37,977 nucleotides of DNA from a virus, in IMG/VR virus record IMGVR_UViG_3300030688_000065, positions 1-37,977 of that record; one strand, given 5' to 3'. This document shows, in pieces, positions 444 to 37,923 of this stretch. The position numbers and the translations under genes were made by a program. Each line of letters begins with the position of its first letter. Within the stretch, counting starts at the first letter, position 1. The notes under the pieces were generated by a model, which saw nothing but the letters and a program-made list of their open reading frames with translations, ran no database searches and was not told the origin of the DNA.

Positions 444-1568
444 ATGGGCGATCTGATGCTATTCGACGAGAACGATACCTCCAACGTCCCGGCGCACATC
501 CGCTCCATGATGGGTCAGGTCAGCAACAGCGACCTGACGGCCGGCGTCACCTCCAGCTTCCCCATCCTCTCCTACAAGGGCAAGTCCTGGCACATCTCGC
601 AGGGCGGGACGCGCACCCTGATCGCCGACGACCAGGGCGAACCGCGGCCATCGATCGAGGTTGTCATCCTCAAGTCGAACCCGCACATTTCCAAAATCTT
701 TTACGAGGGCGGCTACGTCGAAGGCTCGGACGAGCGGCCGACATGCTACTCCAATGACGGCATCACGCCGGCGATGGACGCCGCGGTCAAGCAGGCCAAC
801 AAGTGCGCCATCTGTCCGCGCAACCAGTGGGGCTCGCGCACGACCGAGAGCGGCGCCAAGGGCAAGGAGTGCTCCGACAGCCGCCGCCTGGCGGTGGCCC
901 CGTCCGGCGAGATCGACAACCCCATGCTGCTGCGGGTGCCAGCCGCCACGCTGAAGGAGCTGATGGCCTACGCCTCCATGCTCGACCGGCGCAAGACCCC
1001 CTACGCCGCGGTCGTGACCAAGATCGGCTTCGATCACTCGGTCGCGTTCCCCAAGCTGACGTTCAAGCCCATCCGGTGGCTCGACCCGTCCGAGATCGCC
1101 ACCGTCGCCGCGACCATCGCCGGCCCGCTGGTGGCAGCCATCACGGCGGACAACGGCGAGAGCGACACCGAGGTCGATGAGATCGCCGGCGAGCGCCCGG
1201 CCAACATCGACCAGGTGCTGACGCCCGCTCGGGCCAAAGCCCTGGCGAGCGAGGCTGAAGTCCTGGCCGCGGTGTCGACACCGAAGCCGGCCGAGGTCGT
1301 GAAGCCGAAGCCTCAGGCGTTCGCCCCGGAGGTCGTCAAAGCCGCCCAGGCGGCGCTGGTGGCCGAGACGACCAAGACCGCGGCGCCGGTCGTGAGCGAC
1401 GCCGACGCCAAACGCGCAGCGCTCATGGCGCAGCTGGCCGAGCTGGATAAGCCCGCCGAAGTCGCTGAGCCGGTTGCCGAGGTGAAGCCGAAGCGTGACC
1501 ACGCCAAGCTGCTCACCGAGGCCACCGCCTCGCTCGACGACGTCCTCGGCATCCTGGACGACGAATAG
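444..1568 (+). CDS. Cysteine-containing phage replication-region protein, possibly nucleic-acid binding (374 aa)
   Basis: The protein has a folded N-terminal part (about 1-240) with a cysteine cluster, including CAICP and GKEC, that could bind zinc. A long low-complexity Ala/Pro/Lys/Glu tail (about 250-350) and an acidic C-terminus (DDVLGILDDE) follow. An acidic C-terminal tip after a flexible linker is typical of single-stranded DNA-binding proteins, so that role is a reasonable inference, but I do not recognise an OB fold. Residues 16-34 carry PAHI followed by SNSDLTAG, which recurs in the primase downstream. The start is preceded by GGAGG, and the ATG abuts the previous stop codon. Confidence 0.8.
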   Translation: MGDLMLFDENDTSNVPAHIRSMMGQVSNSDLTAGVTSSFPILSYKGKSWHISQGGTRTLIADDQGEPRPSIEVVILKSNPHISKIFYEGGYVEGSDERPTCYSNDGITPAMDAAVKQANKCAICPRNQWGSRTTESGAKGKECSDSRRLAVAPSGEIDNPMLLRVPAATLKELMAYASMLDRRKTPYAAVVTKIGFDHSVAFPKLTFKPIRWLDPSEIATVAATIAGPLVAAITADNGESDTEVDEIAGERPANIDQVLTPARAKALASEAEVLAAVSTPKPAEVVKPKPQAFAPEVVKAAQAALVAETTKTAAPVVSDADAKRAALMAQLAELDKPAEVAEPVAEVKPKRDHAKLLTEATASLDDVLGILDDE

Positions 1569-1973: not shown

Positions 1974-4946
1974 GTGGACACGGAACAGTTTTTCAATCTC
2001 GTCCTAGCGGACGAGGGCTACATCTGTGTCGCTACGCTGAGCCCCGCGGACGGCGGCAGGATGCGCCACCGGTTTGTAGCCGGGCCTCAGGCCGCGGCGA
2101 GAGCGGTGGCCACTCACGACATAGACCCGACGCAGGTCTTCTTCGGCTGCGCCAACTACCTAACAAACCGGCGGGTTGACGGCGATCCGACCCAAGGACG
2201 GCGCAAGGGCGATAACGTCCAAGCGGTCAGGTCTTTCTGGATGGACCTCGACGTCGAGCCGCCCGTCCCTGACCCCGACAAACCCAAGCCCTACAAGACG
2301 GCGCGCGAGGCGATGATCGCCCTGGCCGGCTTTGAGACCGCGCTAGGCCTGCCCCCCTCCCTGGTGCTCAGGAGCGGCTACGGGCTGCATGCCTACTGGC
2401 CCATGTCCGCGGACATGGCGCCCGGTGCTTGGAAGGTCGTGGCGACCATGCTCAAGGCCGCGGCGCTGCGCCAGGGGCTTCACGCTGATCCTAGCCGCAC
2501 CGCCGATATCGCCAGCGTGCTGCGGCCGCTCGGGGCTACCCACCGCAAGAGCGGCGATCGTGAGGTCAAGCTGATCCGCGCCGCCGGCCAGACCGACGTC
2601 GATGACTTCCGCTACGCTCTGGAGAACTACCTAGGCATCGATGCCGAGGCTGACGGCGAGCTGCCGCCCATGCCGGCGCACATCCAACTCTCATCCAACT
2701 CGGACCTGACGGGAGGCATGACGCATGCCCCGTCCTTCGCTGACCGCATCGCCGACCAGTGCGCGGTCATGGAGCTGATCCGTGACACGCGCGGCAAGGT
2801 CGATCAGCCCACCTGGTATCACGGCCTGCAGCTGCTCAACCGTTGCGAGGACGGCAAGGAGAAGGCCCACGACTGGTCCAAGGGTGACAGTCGCTATGAT
2901 GCTAGGCAGGTCGACGACATCCTCGCCCGCGTCGCGCCGCACGGCCCTACCCTCTGCGCGAAGTTCGCCGAGCACCAGCTGAAGCTTTGCGCGAGCTGCC
3001 CGCACTCCGGCAAGATCAAGTCGCCCATCGTCCTAGGTGTCGCCCCATCGGTCCCGGCCGTCATCACGACGACCAGGGTCGCTGACCCCTTCGGCACCGC
3101 GACCGCCGAGGAGGTTCCCGTGAGCCTGCCGCCCGGCTACGAGTGGAACCGCAGCCCACCGAGCGCGAAGTACGAGAGCCTGTGCCTGAAGATCAAGGGT
3201 GAGGATGACAAGCCGGATACACTGGTGTCGATCTGCGATGCCCTGTTCTACCCGGTCAACCGGCTCGCCGCTGTCGGCGGCGCCATGATGGAGATCGAGA
3301 AGGTCGACCCTCGGTCGGCGGCGAAGACCCGCTTCGTGGTCGAGACCTCCGTCATCGCCAGGGGCTCCGACGCCCTGGCATCCATCCTCGGCAAGCACGA
3401 GATCATCGCGAGGCCCAACATGCATCCCAAGGTTCACGGCTACCTCACCAGCTGGGTCACGCAGCTGGCCCGCGAACAGGACGCCGGCGTCAGCTGCGGC
3501 CACTTCGGCTGGCATGACGATAAGTTCCTAGTCGGAACGACCATGCTGACGCCAGGGGGCGGGAGCCGGTCGGCGCTCACACATGGCTGGGCCACCGTCC
3601 TCGCCCCCTACATGGAGCCCAAGGGCGACCTGGAGGTGTGGAAGGACATCATGGAGCAGGCCTACAACGCCCGCGGCGAGGAGGCCTTCCAGTTCTCCCT
3701 GCTCTGCGGGTTCGCCGCCCCGCTCTGGGCGATGTTCCGCGAGTACGGCGGCATCACCGTCTATGCCCACAGCCCCGGCTCCGGCGTCGGCAAGACGACC
3801 GCTCAGCAGGCGGCGCTGTCGATCTGGGGCGACTGGCAGGAGCTGCAGATGGCGCACACCAAGACGACCGAGTTCGCCTTGAACTGCAGCCTCGGGGCCT
3901 TCCACAACCTGCCTGCGCTCTACGACGAGCTGACCAACATGACCAACCAGGCCGCCAGCGAACTGGTGTTCAGCATCACGTCAGGCAAGGCCAAGCTCCG
4001 GGGTACGTCGGACGGCAATCGAAGCTCTACCGCAGAGAACTGGCAGACTATCCTGATGGCCAGCGGCAATATGACTCTGTCGGATAAGTTGAGCCAGCAC
4101 CGCGGCAATGCTGAGGCAGAGCTTGTTCGAATGTTCGAGTTCACTATTGCTTCCAGTAAGCACCTAACACCCAACCAGGCTGCCAGTCTTTTCCCTAAGA
4201 TGTCTCAGAACTACGGGGTTGCTGGTCCAGTGTTCGCAAGATACATCGTCGATAACTACGAGGATGTTAGGGCACTGCTGCTCAAGGTGCGGGCCTCGCT
4301 GACTGAAACCTACGCGATGAAGTCGCCCGAACGCTTCTGGTCGGCGCTATTCGCCTGTGTCCTGACTGCGCAGATCATCTGCCGTCAGTTAGGACTTGTT
4401 AACTTTCCCGTGGCGCCAATGCGAGATTGGATCGCCCTGCAGCTGGAACATAACCGCTCAGGCCGCGACGGATCGATCAGCACACCGATCGATCTGCTGG
4501 GTACAATGCTCAGTGATTTGTGGCCCGGTATTCTTGCTACTTATGGTGAGGGTGATCGCAGGAACAAAAAAGGCGATAAGGCCGCCCCAGCTACGCTGGT
4601 TAAAGACGCGCCTCGTGGGCAACTCACCGGCCGCTCTATTACCGCCCGGCCTGACTATCCTGAGCGTGACAAGCTCATACTCAGCATCAGTTCCATTAAG
4701 CAGTGGTGTAACAAGAACGGCGTCTCATCGACTGCTATGTTCGACGAACTTGTTGCTAAGGGCTGGGCCTCGAAGGATCAGCCGCGCTACTCGCTCGGGA
4801 GAGGAGTTCCAGAATATAAGGGCGTGACAAGCCAGGTTAAGTGCTGGATATTGGACCCGGATCGGATGGGCCTGGACACCTCGGCTGCCACGGCGACCGT
4901 GTCCAATTTGAAAGTGGCAGGGGGAAAGCACATTGCAAGAGTGTGA
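1974..4946 (+). CDS. Primase-helicase fusion: AEP-like primase plus P-loop ATPase (990 aa)
   Basis: The N-terminal domain looks like an archaeo-eukaryotic/RepB-type primase: WMDLDVE supplies Asp91 and Asp93 as the metal-binding DxD, SGYGLHAYW has the expected His139, and LRPLGATHRKSG fits the third motif. A cysteine-rich segment (CAKFAEHQLKLCASCPHSG) follows and may bind zinc. The C-terminal half is an ATPase with Walker A GSGVGKTT (602-609) and a Walker B-like ALYDE (648-652), resembling DUF927-type helicases. The protein should prime and unwind DNA at the phage fork. The start is GTG; the earlier ATG at 1945 is out of frame. Base composition drops sharply after about nt 4010, which suggests a mosaic gene. 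Confidence 0.85.
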   Translation: MDTEQFFNLVLADEGYICVATLSPADGGRMRHRFVAGPQAAARAVATHDIDPTQVFFGCANYLTNRRVDGDPTQGRRKGDNVQAVRSFWMDLDVEPPVPDPDKPKPYKTAREAMIALAGFETALGLPPSLVLRSGYGLHAYWPMSADMAPGAWKVVATMLKAAALRQGLHADPSRTADIASVLRPLGATHRKSGDREVKLIRAAGQTDVDDFRYALENYLGIDAEADGELPPMPAHIQLSSNSDLTGGMTHAPSFADRIADQCAVMELIRDTRGKVDQPTWYHGLQLLNRCEDGKEKAHDWSKGDSRYDARQVDDILARVAPHGPTLCAKFAEHQLKLCASCPHSGKIKSPIVLGVAPSVPAVITTTRVADPFGTATAEEVPVSLPPGYEWNRSPPSAKYESLCLKIKGEDDKPDTLVSICDALFYPVNRLAAVGGAMMEIEKVDPRSAAKTRFVVETSVIARGSDALASILGKHEIIARPNMHPKVHGYLTSWVTQLAREQDAGVSCGHFGWHDDKFLVGTTMLTPGGGSRSALTHGWATVLAPYMEPKGDLEVWKDIMEQAYNARGEEAFQFSLLCGFAAPLWAMFREYGGITVYAHSPGSGVGKTTAQQAALSIWGDWQELQMAHTKTTEFALNCSLGAFHNLPALYDELTNMTNQAASELVFSITSGKAKLRGTSDGNRSSTAENWQTILMASGNMTLSDKLSQHRGNAEAELVRMFEFTIASSKHLTPNQAASLFPKMSQNYGVAGPVFARYIVDNYEDVRALLLKVRASLTETYAMKSPERFWSALFACVLTAQIICRQLGLVNFPVAPMRDWIALQLEHNRSGRDGSISTPIDLLGTMLSDLWPGILATYGEGDRRNKKGDKAAPATLVKDAPRGQLTGRSITARPDYPERDKLILSISSIKQWCNKNGVSSTAMFDELVAKGWASKDQPRYSLGRGVPEYKGVTSQVKCWILDPDRMGLDTSAATATVSNLKVAGGKHIARV

Positions 4947-35355: not shown

Positions 35356-35372
35356 ATTATTCCCGGAATAGG
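35356..35372. promoter_or_regulatory. Palindromic operator copy 1
   Basis: ATTATTCCCGGAATAGG matches the consensus ATTATTCCNGGAATAAT at all but the last two positions. It is 29 bp upstream of the candidate -35 box at 35401. Related sites occur at 36770 and 37315. Confidence 0.55.
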
Positions 35373-35512: not shown

Positions 35513-36154
35513 ATGACTACTCAATCCGTCATGCCCGTTGCTTCGCCTGAATTCATCGCGTCGCTCGGCAAAGATTACAACGCTAGCGTTGTCGCTCTCG
35601 ACAACGCCAAGGCCGCGTTGATTGAACTGTCCGGCGCTCAACTGCCTTTCTTGGTTCAGCGTCTGGACGGCATCGCCAAGGTCACTGAAGAGACTTGGGC
35701 GAGCGATTGGAAGGAAGCGCAAGAGGCCGCTTACAAGGCTTCGGGGCGCTCGAAGCAAACGGACGCGGCCAAGCTCGCCTTGAGCATGGGCTCGGCTGTC
35801 TCGCTCCTCAAGGTTGCCGTGATCGCACTCACCCATAACGTGCAACCCTTGAAGGGTGAAACGATCACAACCTACGTCAATCGCGCTCGTCCGATCTTGC
35901 AAGGGCGCGGGACGCTCAAGGGGAAGGTCAAGGAAGCGGCCGAACGCGAAAACCGCAAGGCTCCGGTCAACGCTGGCAAGGCGAAGCTAGACAGCGCCAG
36001 TGCGGCCTTTGCGCTCGCTGGCAAGGACCAAGCCTTCGCTGACAAGCTAGCGCGCGTCGCGGCCGACTATCGTGAGGAGTTCGAAGATTGGTTCGATATG
36101 CTCATGATCAAGGAAGCTCGCCGCGCGCCAGCGAGTGAGACTATCAACGCCTAA
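35513..36154 (+). CDS. Hypothetical helical protein, accessory gene 1 (213 aa)
   Basis: Mostly helical with many Lys, Glu and Ala (DNAKAALIELSGAQLPFLVQ, then ETITTYVNRARPILQGRG). The C-terminal half is basic, then acidic. I do not recognise a family. AAAGGAA lies 7 bases before the ATG. Codon use is less GC3-rich than the late genes (more TTG, CAA, GCT), so it may have another origin. Its stop codon is part of the intergenic repeat. Confidence 0.7.
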   Translation: MTTQSVMPVASPEFIASLGKDYNASVVALDNAKAALIELSGAQLPFLVQRLDGIAKVTEETWASDWKEAQEAAYKASGRSKQTDAAKLALSMGSAVSLLKVAVIALTHNVQPLKGETITTYVNRARPILQGRGTLKGKVKEAAERENRKAPVNAGKAKLDSASAAFALAGKDQAFADKLARVAADYREEFEDWFDMLMIKEARRAPASETINA

Positions 36155-36189
36155 CAACCTAGCGCCCTCGCATCATGTGCGAGGGCGCT
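36151..36189 (+). repeat. Intergenic repeat-hairpin unit 1
   Basis: CTAACAACCTAGC (36151-36163) leads into a perfect 12-bp stem AGCGCCCTCGCA / TGCGAGGGCGCT (36161-36172 and 36178-36189). The same leader and stem recur at 36410 and 36652. CCC TTA follows, not a strong T-run. Confidence 0.8.
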
Positions 36190-36409: not shown

Positions 36410-36447
36410 CTAACAACCTAGCGCCCTCGCACATGATGCGAGGGCGC
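36410..36447 (+). repeat. Intergenic repeat-hairpin unit 2
   Basis: CTAACAACCTAGC (36410-36422) is followed by an 11-bp stem GCGCCCTCGCA / TGCGAGGGCGC (36421-36431 and 36437-36447), 5-nt loop. CCTTTG follows. Nearly identical to unit 1. Confidence 0.8.
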
Positions 36448-36464: not shown

Positions 36465-36650
36465 ATGCGCTTGAATTTAGACGGTGGAGAAACGCACCGC
36501 ATCGACGGCATCGCCGGGCGCGTTGTTCAGTCTGTGACCTGTGATCCATACGAAAAAATGGTGATCGAATTCACAGACGGTTCGCGCCTGATAATCCGCG
36601 AGGGCGGTCAAGTTGGATGGTTAGACCCATCCTTTACCGAAGGAGAATAA
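36465..36650 (+). CDS. Hypothetical small protein, accessory gene 3 (61 aa)
   Basis: A compact beta-rich protein: MRLNLDGGETHRIDGIAGRV, then MVIEFTDGSRLIIREGGQ. GAGAG lies just before the ATG, as in gene 2. It has no recognised family; the alternating strands suggest a small barrel. Confidence 0.6.
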   Translation: MRLNLDGGETHRIDGIAGRVVQSVTCDPYEKMVIEFTDGSRLIIREGGQVGWLDPSFTEGE

Positions 36651-36651
36651 T

Positions 36652-36700
36652 CTAACAACCTAGCACTATCACTCGCCCTCGCATGGAAACGTGCGAGGGC
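36652..36700 (+). repeat. Intergenic repeat-hairpin unit 3
   Basis: CTAACAACCTAGC (36652-36664) is identical to units 1 and 2. After a short insertion, GCCCTCGCA (36675-36683) pairs with TGCGAGGGC (36692-36700), followed by TTTCG. No gene follows directly, so this unit may end the transcript. Confidence 0.8.
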
Positions 36701-36769
36701 TTTCGTGTGCCTGGTCGCCGCGCCGTGGGTGTGTGAGCGCCAGCGAGAGGGTCGGCGCGCGTTCGCGAA

Positions 36770-36786
36770 ATTATTCCTGGAATAAT
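36770..36786. promoter_or_regulatory. Palindromic operator copy 2
   Basis: ATTATTCCTGGAATAAT, a perfect 17-bp palindrome with one central base. Same site as at 37315 and near-identical to 35356. Confidence 0.65.
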
Positions 36787-36895
36787 GTTACGGCATCACA
36801 CCACGCGAGGGCGCTGCGCGCGTTTTTCGCGTCGTTCGGTATGTAGTGTTTTTAGGTGTTAGCATGTTTGGTTTTTACTAATTACAAATCCCTTA

Positions 36896-36993
36896 CGCCA
36901 GAAGGGTTTGCGAGGGGTTCTATATATATATTTAGTGTAATTAGATAATTAGTAGCTGTTTTTGAGAGGCCCCCCCTTCTGGCGATTTTTTTT
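36896..36993 (+). terminator. Long-loop intrinsic terminator
   Basis: CGCCAGAAGGG (36896-36906) pairs perfectly with CCCTTCTGGCG (36974-36984), followed by A and eight T's (36986-36993). The 67-nt loop is very long for a terminator and contains one arm of the larger inverted repeat. Confidence 0.5.
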
Positions 36994-37066
36994 CTTGGCC
37001 GCCAACAAAAAAATCCATTGGCGGACAGGGGGGGTATACGTTTTGGGCTACTAATTATCTAATTAC
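36937..37066. repeat. Nested inverted repeats
   Basis: The outer arms at 36937-36956 and 37047-37066 are a perfect 20-bp inverted repeat (core TAATTAGATAATTAGTAGC). Inside, seven C's (36970-36976) face seven G's (37028-37034), and CCGCCAA (36999-37005) faces TTGGCGG (37018-37024). The three tiers are in register as one large cruciform or RNA stem. Confidence 0.8.
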
Positions 37067-37144
37067 CGAAAATCAATGGGTTACAGCGGCTATTAATAGC
37101 GGTTCGCAACTGGTTTTCGTGCCTTATTACAGCCTAGCATAGCA

Positions 37145-37165
37145 TAAAACCCTAAAACCCTAAAA
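37145..37165. repeat. AAAACCCT short tandem repeat
   Basis: TAAAACCC occurs twice, followed by TAAAA, an 8-bp unit repeated about 2.5 times. It lies in the AT-rich region before the regulator gene. Confidence 0.7.
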
Positions 37166-37246
37166 GTCTAGCCTAAGTTGAGTCCCTAGCCGGCCCACTC
37201 TAGGCCCAACTAAATACCCTCCAAGGCATTTAGCTAGTCCCTGCGA

Positions 37247-37275
37247 TTGACATACTAATGCCCTTGTGGGACTAC
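37247..37275 (+). promoter_or_regulatory. Possible promoter for the regulator gene
   Basis: A perfect TTGACA lies at 37247-37252. With a 17-bp spacer the -10 would be GACTAC, which is weak. Position fits: it is 60 bp upstream of the operator at 37315 and 100 bp upstream of the regulator ATG. Confidence 0.3.
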
Positions 37276-37314
37276 CTAACTTCCGCTGCTAATTACACCG
37301 GCAGCCCGCAAAAA

Positions 37315-37331
37315 ATTATTCCGGGAATAAT
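37315..37331. promoter_or_regulatory. Palindromic operator copy 3, upstream of regulator
   Basis: ATTATTCCGGGAATAAT, perfect; symmetry extends to 37313-37333. It ends 18 bp before the regulator ATG, and a half site AATTATTCC follows at 37359-37367. The position suggests autoregulation. Confidence 0.65.
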
Positions 37332-37350
37332 TTCAGCCAGTGGAGTTCAA

Positions 37351-37923
37351 ATGCCCGCAATTATTCCCCCGCTCAAGGTGACGCTGTCGCAGGACACTCG
37401 CGACAAGCTCGACCAGCTGGCGGTCAGCCAGGACATTCCGCTGCGCGCCGTGCTCACGACGCTGATCCGGCTGGCGCACGCTAAGCACTTCTCTGGCGAC
37501 GCTGCGCCGACAATCCCCGGTGCGCCGCCCGCCCAACCCAAGCTCACCAAACCCGCGCAGAACCGCATCGCCCGCGCCGCGCGTGAGGAGGCTACCCGCC
37601 TCACCAACGAGACGGAGCAGCTGCGTGTCGAGTGGCTGAGTGGGATCGACACCTGCCGCGAAGTGACCGGCCAGACCCGCTGCCAGTTTCTCGACCTACC
37701 CGAGGGCACGCCCATCGACGATGTTATGGACGCCGCGGTTGCATGGGGTCAGGTCAACATCGTCGAGCCTAATCTCGCCAACGAGTACCACTGGGTCCGC
37801 AACTGGCGGATCAGCCATGGCGAGAACCTGGAGCCCTGGTATCACCCCATGGTGACAACCCGTGCCGAGCCGACCCCGCAGCTGGCTGCGTTCGAGACCG
37901 ACCTCGGCGTATTGGAGGACTGA
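37351..37923 (+). CDS. Ribbon-helix-helix-like regulator (190 aa)
   Basis: Residues about 8-45 read LKVTLSQDTRDKLDQLA followed by VSQDIPLRAVLTTLIRLA, the beta strand plus two helices of CopG/Arc-type ribbon-helix-helix proteins. The C-terminal 110 residues are helical with two cysteines and have no recognised family. I chose the ATG at 37351 with GGAG 5 bases upstream; the earlier in-frame ATG at 37258 has no ribosome-binding site and would place the operator in the coding part. Probably binds the palindromes nearby. Confidence 0.65.
   Translation: MPAIIPPLKVTLSQDTRDKLDQLAVSQDIPLRAVLTTLIRLAHAKHFSGDAAPTIPGAPPAQPKLTKPAQNRIARAAREEATRLTNETEQLRVEWLSGIDTCREVTGQTRCQFLDLPEGTPIDDVMDAAVAWGQVNIVEPNLANEYHWVRNWRISHGENLEPWYHPMVTTRAEPTPQLAAFETDLGVLED

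Follow-up and report, generated by a model that had tools for sequence, protein, structure and literature searches.

A candidate replication origin of facing repeats in tailed phages that encode a PrimPol-helicase

The stretch of DNA analyzed here (the window) is a complete IMG/VR record of 37,977 bases, classed as linear. A 700-bp gap separates its small early genes from the gene for a 190-aa protein (Table 1) and is the most AT-rich part of the record (43% GC at 36850-37300 versus 64.6% for the whole window). The original prediction had drawn attention to this gap on account of six copies of the heptamer CTAATTA (or TAATTAG), a perfect 20-bp inverted repeat and an adjacent AT-rich stretch, and had proposed that it serves as a replication origin or is bound by a dedicated initiator. 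The six heptamers were confirmed, each at its predicted position, and none occurs elsewhere in the 37,977-base window, where 0.48 are expected; none of 100 dinucleotide shuffles reached six, and shuffles of the 700-bp AT-rich gap alone gave a mean of 0.25 and a maximum of 4. The two arms are likewise exact reverse complements, and can be lengthened to 27 bp at 89% identity, while the longest inverted repeat among 500 shuffles of the gap was 15 bp. The orientation of the repeats is ambiguous, because their core, TAATTA, is its own complement.

The spacer between the arms contains a C7 and a G7 run; the window has just two others. Together with the arms and an inner CCGCCAA/TTGGCGG pair, they had been described as three tiers in register. 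This holds for the C7/G7 pair, whose axis (37002.0) nearly coincides with that of the arms (37001.5); the innermost pair (CCGCCAA at 36999, TTGGCGG at 37018) has its axis at 37011.5, i.e. 10 bp off, and is nested but out of register. A feature absent from the original prediction lies 4 bp from the right arm: the only exact match in the window to the consensus for IHF (taken from PMC10380432). No DnaA box (TTWTNCACA) is present in the window, an Rfam search gave nothing above threshold, and therefore no known RNA, and a blastn search of the last 3 kb of the window against phage records returned no match. Two CCCTAAAA units stand in tandem at 37141-37175; they look telomere-like by eye and number two copies only.

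Table 1. Positions of the features discussed in the text, in window coordinates
Feature	Positions	Strand	Remarks
374-aa conserved early protein, acidic tail, possibly ssDNA-binding	444..1568	+	weak fold matches
990-aa AEP PrimPol fused to DUF927 (Cch/SaPIbov1 Rep-like) helicase	1974..4946	+	proposed initiator
Non-coding intergenic gap with proposed origin	36650..37350		without convincing ORF; GC minimum of window
Operator-like palindrome ATTATTCCTGGAATAAT	36770..36786		separate from iterons
Single iteron CTAATTA	36878..36884	+	in heptamer count
TATATATATA, candidate unwinding segment	36921..36930		similar AT tracts in relatives
Left arm of perfect 20-bp inverted repeat	36937..36956	-	iterons 36938-36944 and 36946-36952, 8-bp period
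90-bp spacer between arms	36957..37046		C7 36970-36976, G7 37028-37034, A/T tracts
Right arm of inverted repeat	37047..37066	+	iterons 37051-37057 and 37059-37065
IHF-type site AATCAATGGGTTA, exact WATCAANNNNTTR	37071..37083	+	
Single iteron CTAATTA	37289..37295	+	in heptamer count
Operator-like palindrome ATTATTCCGGGAATAAT	37315..37331		immediately upstream of 190-aa gene
190-aa protein	37351..37923	+	ribbon-helix-helix-like N-terminus by eye

The iteron block is flanked by two copies of a further element that had escaped the original prediction, the operator-like palindrome ATTATTCCnGGAATAAT. It has three matches in the window versus 0.01 expected (one of them imperfect), all in intergenic gaps; the third is at 35356-35372. 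Many relatives have a dispersed palindrome of their own (TTAATCCCACGGGATTAA, eight times in L053; TTCTAACATGTTAGAA in L043; ATTTAATCGGATTAAAT, five times in L048), as though every phage relied on a regulator of its own acting at several sites. For the 190-aa protein encoded next to the block, searches of viral contigs gave no relatives, and it matches no family. On the other side of the gap, three consecutive small early genes end alike (36151-36189, 36410-36447 and 36652-36700), with CTAACAACCTAGC followed by a CGCCCTCGCA...TGCGAGGGCG hairpin; by their sequence, these shared gene-end elements are like repeated terminator cassettes.

To collect relatives, we used a TerL search, which yielded 80 loci. 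A repeat cluster is found 2.0-3.3 kb upstream of terL in 11/11 whole relatives that contain the region, and in the window and seven of these eleven no other octamer of the record clusters more strongly. The clustered octamer differs by phage or sub-group: AATTATCC in G002, G003 and G004, ACTAGTTG in G005 and G010, GCTTTGCA in G007, TAATAAGA in G008, ACTAGTGA in G009, TCTACTCA in G012, TACGTAAA in G011 and CCATGTCC in G001. The first clue to this conservation was the presence, at the same place in relatives, of inverted repeats with 15-24 bp arms. The window's own motif is also shared, since the exact 15-mer CTAATTATCTAATTA recurs inside the repeat cluster of seven related contigs. Indeed, among 80 contigs containing CTAATTATCTAATTA, at least four nearby copies are present only in these seven, all of which encode proteins of this group, and in none of the 65 unrelated contigs.

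Repeats (AAAAGGTAG) and an IHF-type site are also present in the cultured Pseudomonas phage Rollin, at record positions 1-500, and repeats with an IHF-type site occur in a Burkholderiaceae prophage as well. The Rollin record (OR577172.1; L193:1-500 and the end of L233) was opened inside the repeat array, which is thus split across its ends. No clear repeat cluster was seen in G028, and the corresponding gap of Rhizobium phage RHph_TM3_14A (19355-20125) contains two inverted IHF-type sites and no octamer cluster. Judged from these sequence comparisons, most of them with uncultured relatives, the iteron region is a conserved element across the group, whose repeat sequences have changed. Whole relatives are about 45-63 kb long, so that about 20 kb of the window's genome is probably missing; gene order places the missing part most likely between 37977 and 1.

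The typical layout consists of two to three repeats facing each other over approximately 60-155 bp. Facing repeats accompanied by IHF-type sites are found in L097, L135, L153, G022 and G029, and L097, L135, L153 and G029 show one order: two to three repeats preceded by an IHF-type site, then a spacer and the same repeats inverted, followed by a second IHF-type site. IHF-type sites number 22 versus 1.5 expected from region shuffles (in 16 of 24 homologous regions), and G/C runs of at least 6 number 13 versus 2.3 expected (in 10/24), the associated probabilities being approximate because the intervals were picked from the repeat clusters, several of them by eye. An exact IHF match is absent from the region in G001, G011, G007 and G008; AGAGGCCCCCCCT is common to L018 and the window.

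The inverted repeat had also been taken to form a cruciform, a suggestion that the comparison does not bear out: arm sequences and spacer lengths vary among relatives, the facing sets recur, and extrusion is unnecessary. Two initiator assemblies therefore fit the recurring facing sets better. A single strand of the block folds, as DNA, far better than shuffles (z -9), which is a consequence of the inverted repeat and hence no evidence for cruciform use.

Another possibility is that the repeats are sites of a phage transcription regulator acting on early promoters. The block is upstream of an early gene and has operator-like palindromes on both sides, and relatives possess dispersed palindromes of their own; within the same phage, however, dispersed palindromes and clustered repeats differ in sequence. 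Moreover, there is one repeat cluster per genome, together with IHF-type sites and G-runs, facing multi-copy sets are atypical of operators, and no good match to a sigma-70 promoter was found inside the block. We therefore regard a regulatory role of the repeats as unlikely.

With the PrimPol gene as the query, at least 600 PrimPol stretches were retrieved, including phages in which the window's TerL matches nothing. A repeat cluster was present in four of the five such phages inspected (G022, G025, G029 and G030), beside exact IHF-consensus sites in three of them and a weaker one in G030; AATGTTCC is common to G029 and G025. The layout thus accompanies the PrimPol gene even where TerL is not recognizable, which ties it to the replication genes and argues against a packaging site. 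A cos or pac site for the small terminase had to be considered since the terS gene is about 1.7 kb from the block in the window and since lambda cosB likewise combines repeats (R sites) and an IHF site. Yet other genes intervene between the block and terS, and the Rollin repeats are more than 6 kb from terL, all of which makes packaging improbable. Even less probable is a parS-like partition site: heptamers around an IHF-type site do resemble P1 parS, which likewise combines repeats and IHF, but ParB_N (PF02195) was unmatched in 16 records, the window and several of these records being incomplete.

A relative was found in a single bacterial genome, a Burkholderiaceae MAG, which contains what is apparently a complete integrated member of the group (CALXQR010000002.1, ~47-109 kb; L326-L331), in the order hemH, PrimPol (47.3 kb), repeats (73.2), terL (76.1), integrase (107.7-108.9) and queC. 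The integrase, an arm-binding tyrosine integrase (PF13356, PF22022, PF00589), is at the end opposite PrimPol, and the repeats are internal: the nearer end is about 26 kb away, and the PrimPol gene about 23-26 kb. An attP with arm-type and IHF sites, which repeats, IHF sites and an inverted repeat would resemble, is hardly credible, even though a few relatives have tyrosine integrases, since the integrase and host junctions of the prophage are at least 26 kb from the repeats, so that attP is rejected for the homologous region, and since G002 and G005 (records with overlapping ends) have the repeats and no integrase.

GC skew had been put forward as a check of the origin. The cumulative curve does turn inside the region, at 37121, but the turn is confounded with gene orientation and has the reverse sign of that in most relatives. 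A turn at the repeats, or a few kb from them, is seen in the window and many relatives, with no fit in G007 and G010. Divergent transcription nearby and the reversed sign in the window make GC skew weak support for the site.

We then considered which protein might read the repeats. The best candidate is the 990-aa protein, which has the architecture of an initiator: an AEP primase, with invariant residues D91, D93 and H139, followed by a DUF927 helicase domain. By sequence it matches Cch with an E-value of 1.9e-9. Its structure model (pLDDT 84.9) aligns with S-2L PrimPol over residues 1-217 (Z 18.6, rmsd 2.5, 176 residues aligned), with SCCmec Cch over residues 384-967 (Z 32.1, rmsd 6.8, 477 aligned) and with SaPIbov1 Rep over residues 382-969 (Z 27.2, rmsd 8.4, 465 aligned). 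Residues 886-968 of the model form a strand-strand-helix-helix-strand-strand, winged-helix-like domain, and the structural alignment to Cch and Rep, as it reaches residue 967-969, covers a C-terminal domain of the same fold. SaPI Rep binds the iterons of its origin through the C-terminal domain (PMC7581432). By analogy, the 990-aa protein probably reads the repeats, and the facing sets would load two helicases. Across 16 genomes, after correction for overall relatedness, similar repeats did not go with similar C-terminal domains (partial r 0.015, permutation p 0.46); covariation therefore does not pin the repeat binder to the 990-aa protein. The homologous PrimPol-DUF927 helicase of RHph_TM3_14A (L234:17524-20607; MN988472.1 42239-45322) appears to be misannotated, its record listing it as a putative integrase.

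The 374-aa protein, the other binder that had been suggested, is not supported in this role: it has an acidic tail, and its model (pLDDT 75.9) gave no significant fold match, the weak ones being mostly to ssDNA-binding proteins. Its gene and that of a 124-aa protein (69-443) accompany the PrimPol gene in relatives; the acidic C-terminus of the 374-aa protein resembles that of SSB proteins, and the 124-aa protein weakly resembles Mu Gam.

Known origins offer partial parallels. The closest initiators, SaPIbov1 Rep and SCCmec Cch, share with the 990-aa protein a self-loading helicase of the DUF927 family and a DNA-binding domain at the C-terminus (predicted here). Unlike them, the helicase here carries a fused AEP primase, and relatives of the window encode their own PolA-family polymerase; moreover, Rep and Cch are staphylococcal, whereas the present elements are tailed phages, about 55-63 kb in size, of apparently Gram-negative hosts, with IHF-type sites. 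The SaPI origin is directly downstream of rep, whereas here the early operon has the PrimPol gene at one end and the origin at the other; because the origin does not adjoin the helicase gene, we do not class it as a SaPI replicon. Iteron plasmid origins such as pSC101 and R6K gamma have clustered replicon-specific repeats, an AT-rich segment and IHF beside the repeats (PMC5043065). The block has in common with them a non-coding cluster of replicon-specific repeats, an AT-rich segment and an IHF-type site (predicted here). Their repeats are mostly direct and phased, however, whereas those of the block are inverted doublets with an 8-bp period, and no RepA/pi-type initiator was identified; as DnaA boxes and phased direct repeats are absent, the block is not classed as an iteron plasmid origin. 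Ori-lambda is also a phage origin in which repeats adjoin an AT-rich part (PMC5043065). Unlike in lambda, the origin proposed here is intergenic and its proposed initiator is itself a helicase and primase. In lambda, the repeats are part of gene O, whose product binds them and recruits the helicase. In the P4 alpha/ori-crr system, primase, helicase and origin binding are combined in one protein, and the helicase family and the origin layout differ from those of the window.

Altogether, the recurrence of the 15-mer in seven related contigs and of the layout across the group supports the original proposal of an origin or dedicated-initiator site. We put at roughly three in four (about 0.74) the probability, judged from sequence, that the region is a replication origin for a self-loading PrimPol-helicase reading TAATTA repeats. 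In such an origin, the 990-aa protein would bind the TAATTA repeats via its C-terminal winged-helix-like domain, and the doublets facing each other over 90 bp would allow two helicase assemblies to load head to head. At 37071-37083, IHF or a similar protein of the host may bind and bend the DNA and so aid opening of the AT-rich part. Priming of the opened strands would then fall to the N-terminal primase domain, with the G/C runs as possible start sites, and copying would proceed from the site in one or both directions with a phage PolA-family polymerase, as seen in relatives. It is possible, if rather doubtful, that a large group of tailed phages shares these features, with a one-protein initiator made of PrimPol fused to an MCM-like self-loading helicase, a two-sided, IHF-aided origin, primase starts at G/C runs and fast replacement of the repeats within a layout that is kept.

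A literature search found no described origin for this phage group. What is new here is the two-sided layout and a single protein that unites helicase and primase with, probably, recognition of the origin; for a wide phage group, that of the PrimPol stretches, the analysis indicates where replication may start and which protein may initiate it. An origin recognized by a single primase-helicase would, if true, be a compact and testable model of how MCM-like helicases are loaded, and the cultured members of the group, Pseudomonas phage Rollin and Rhizobium phage RHph_TM3_14A, make this model testable.
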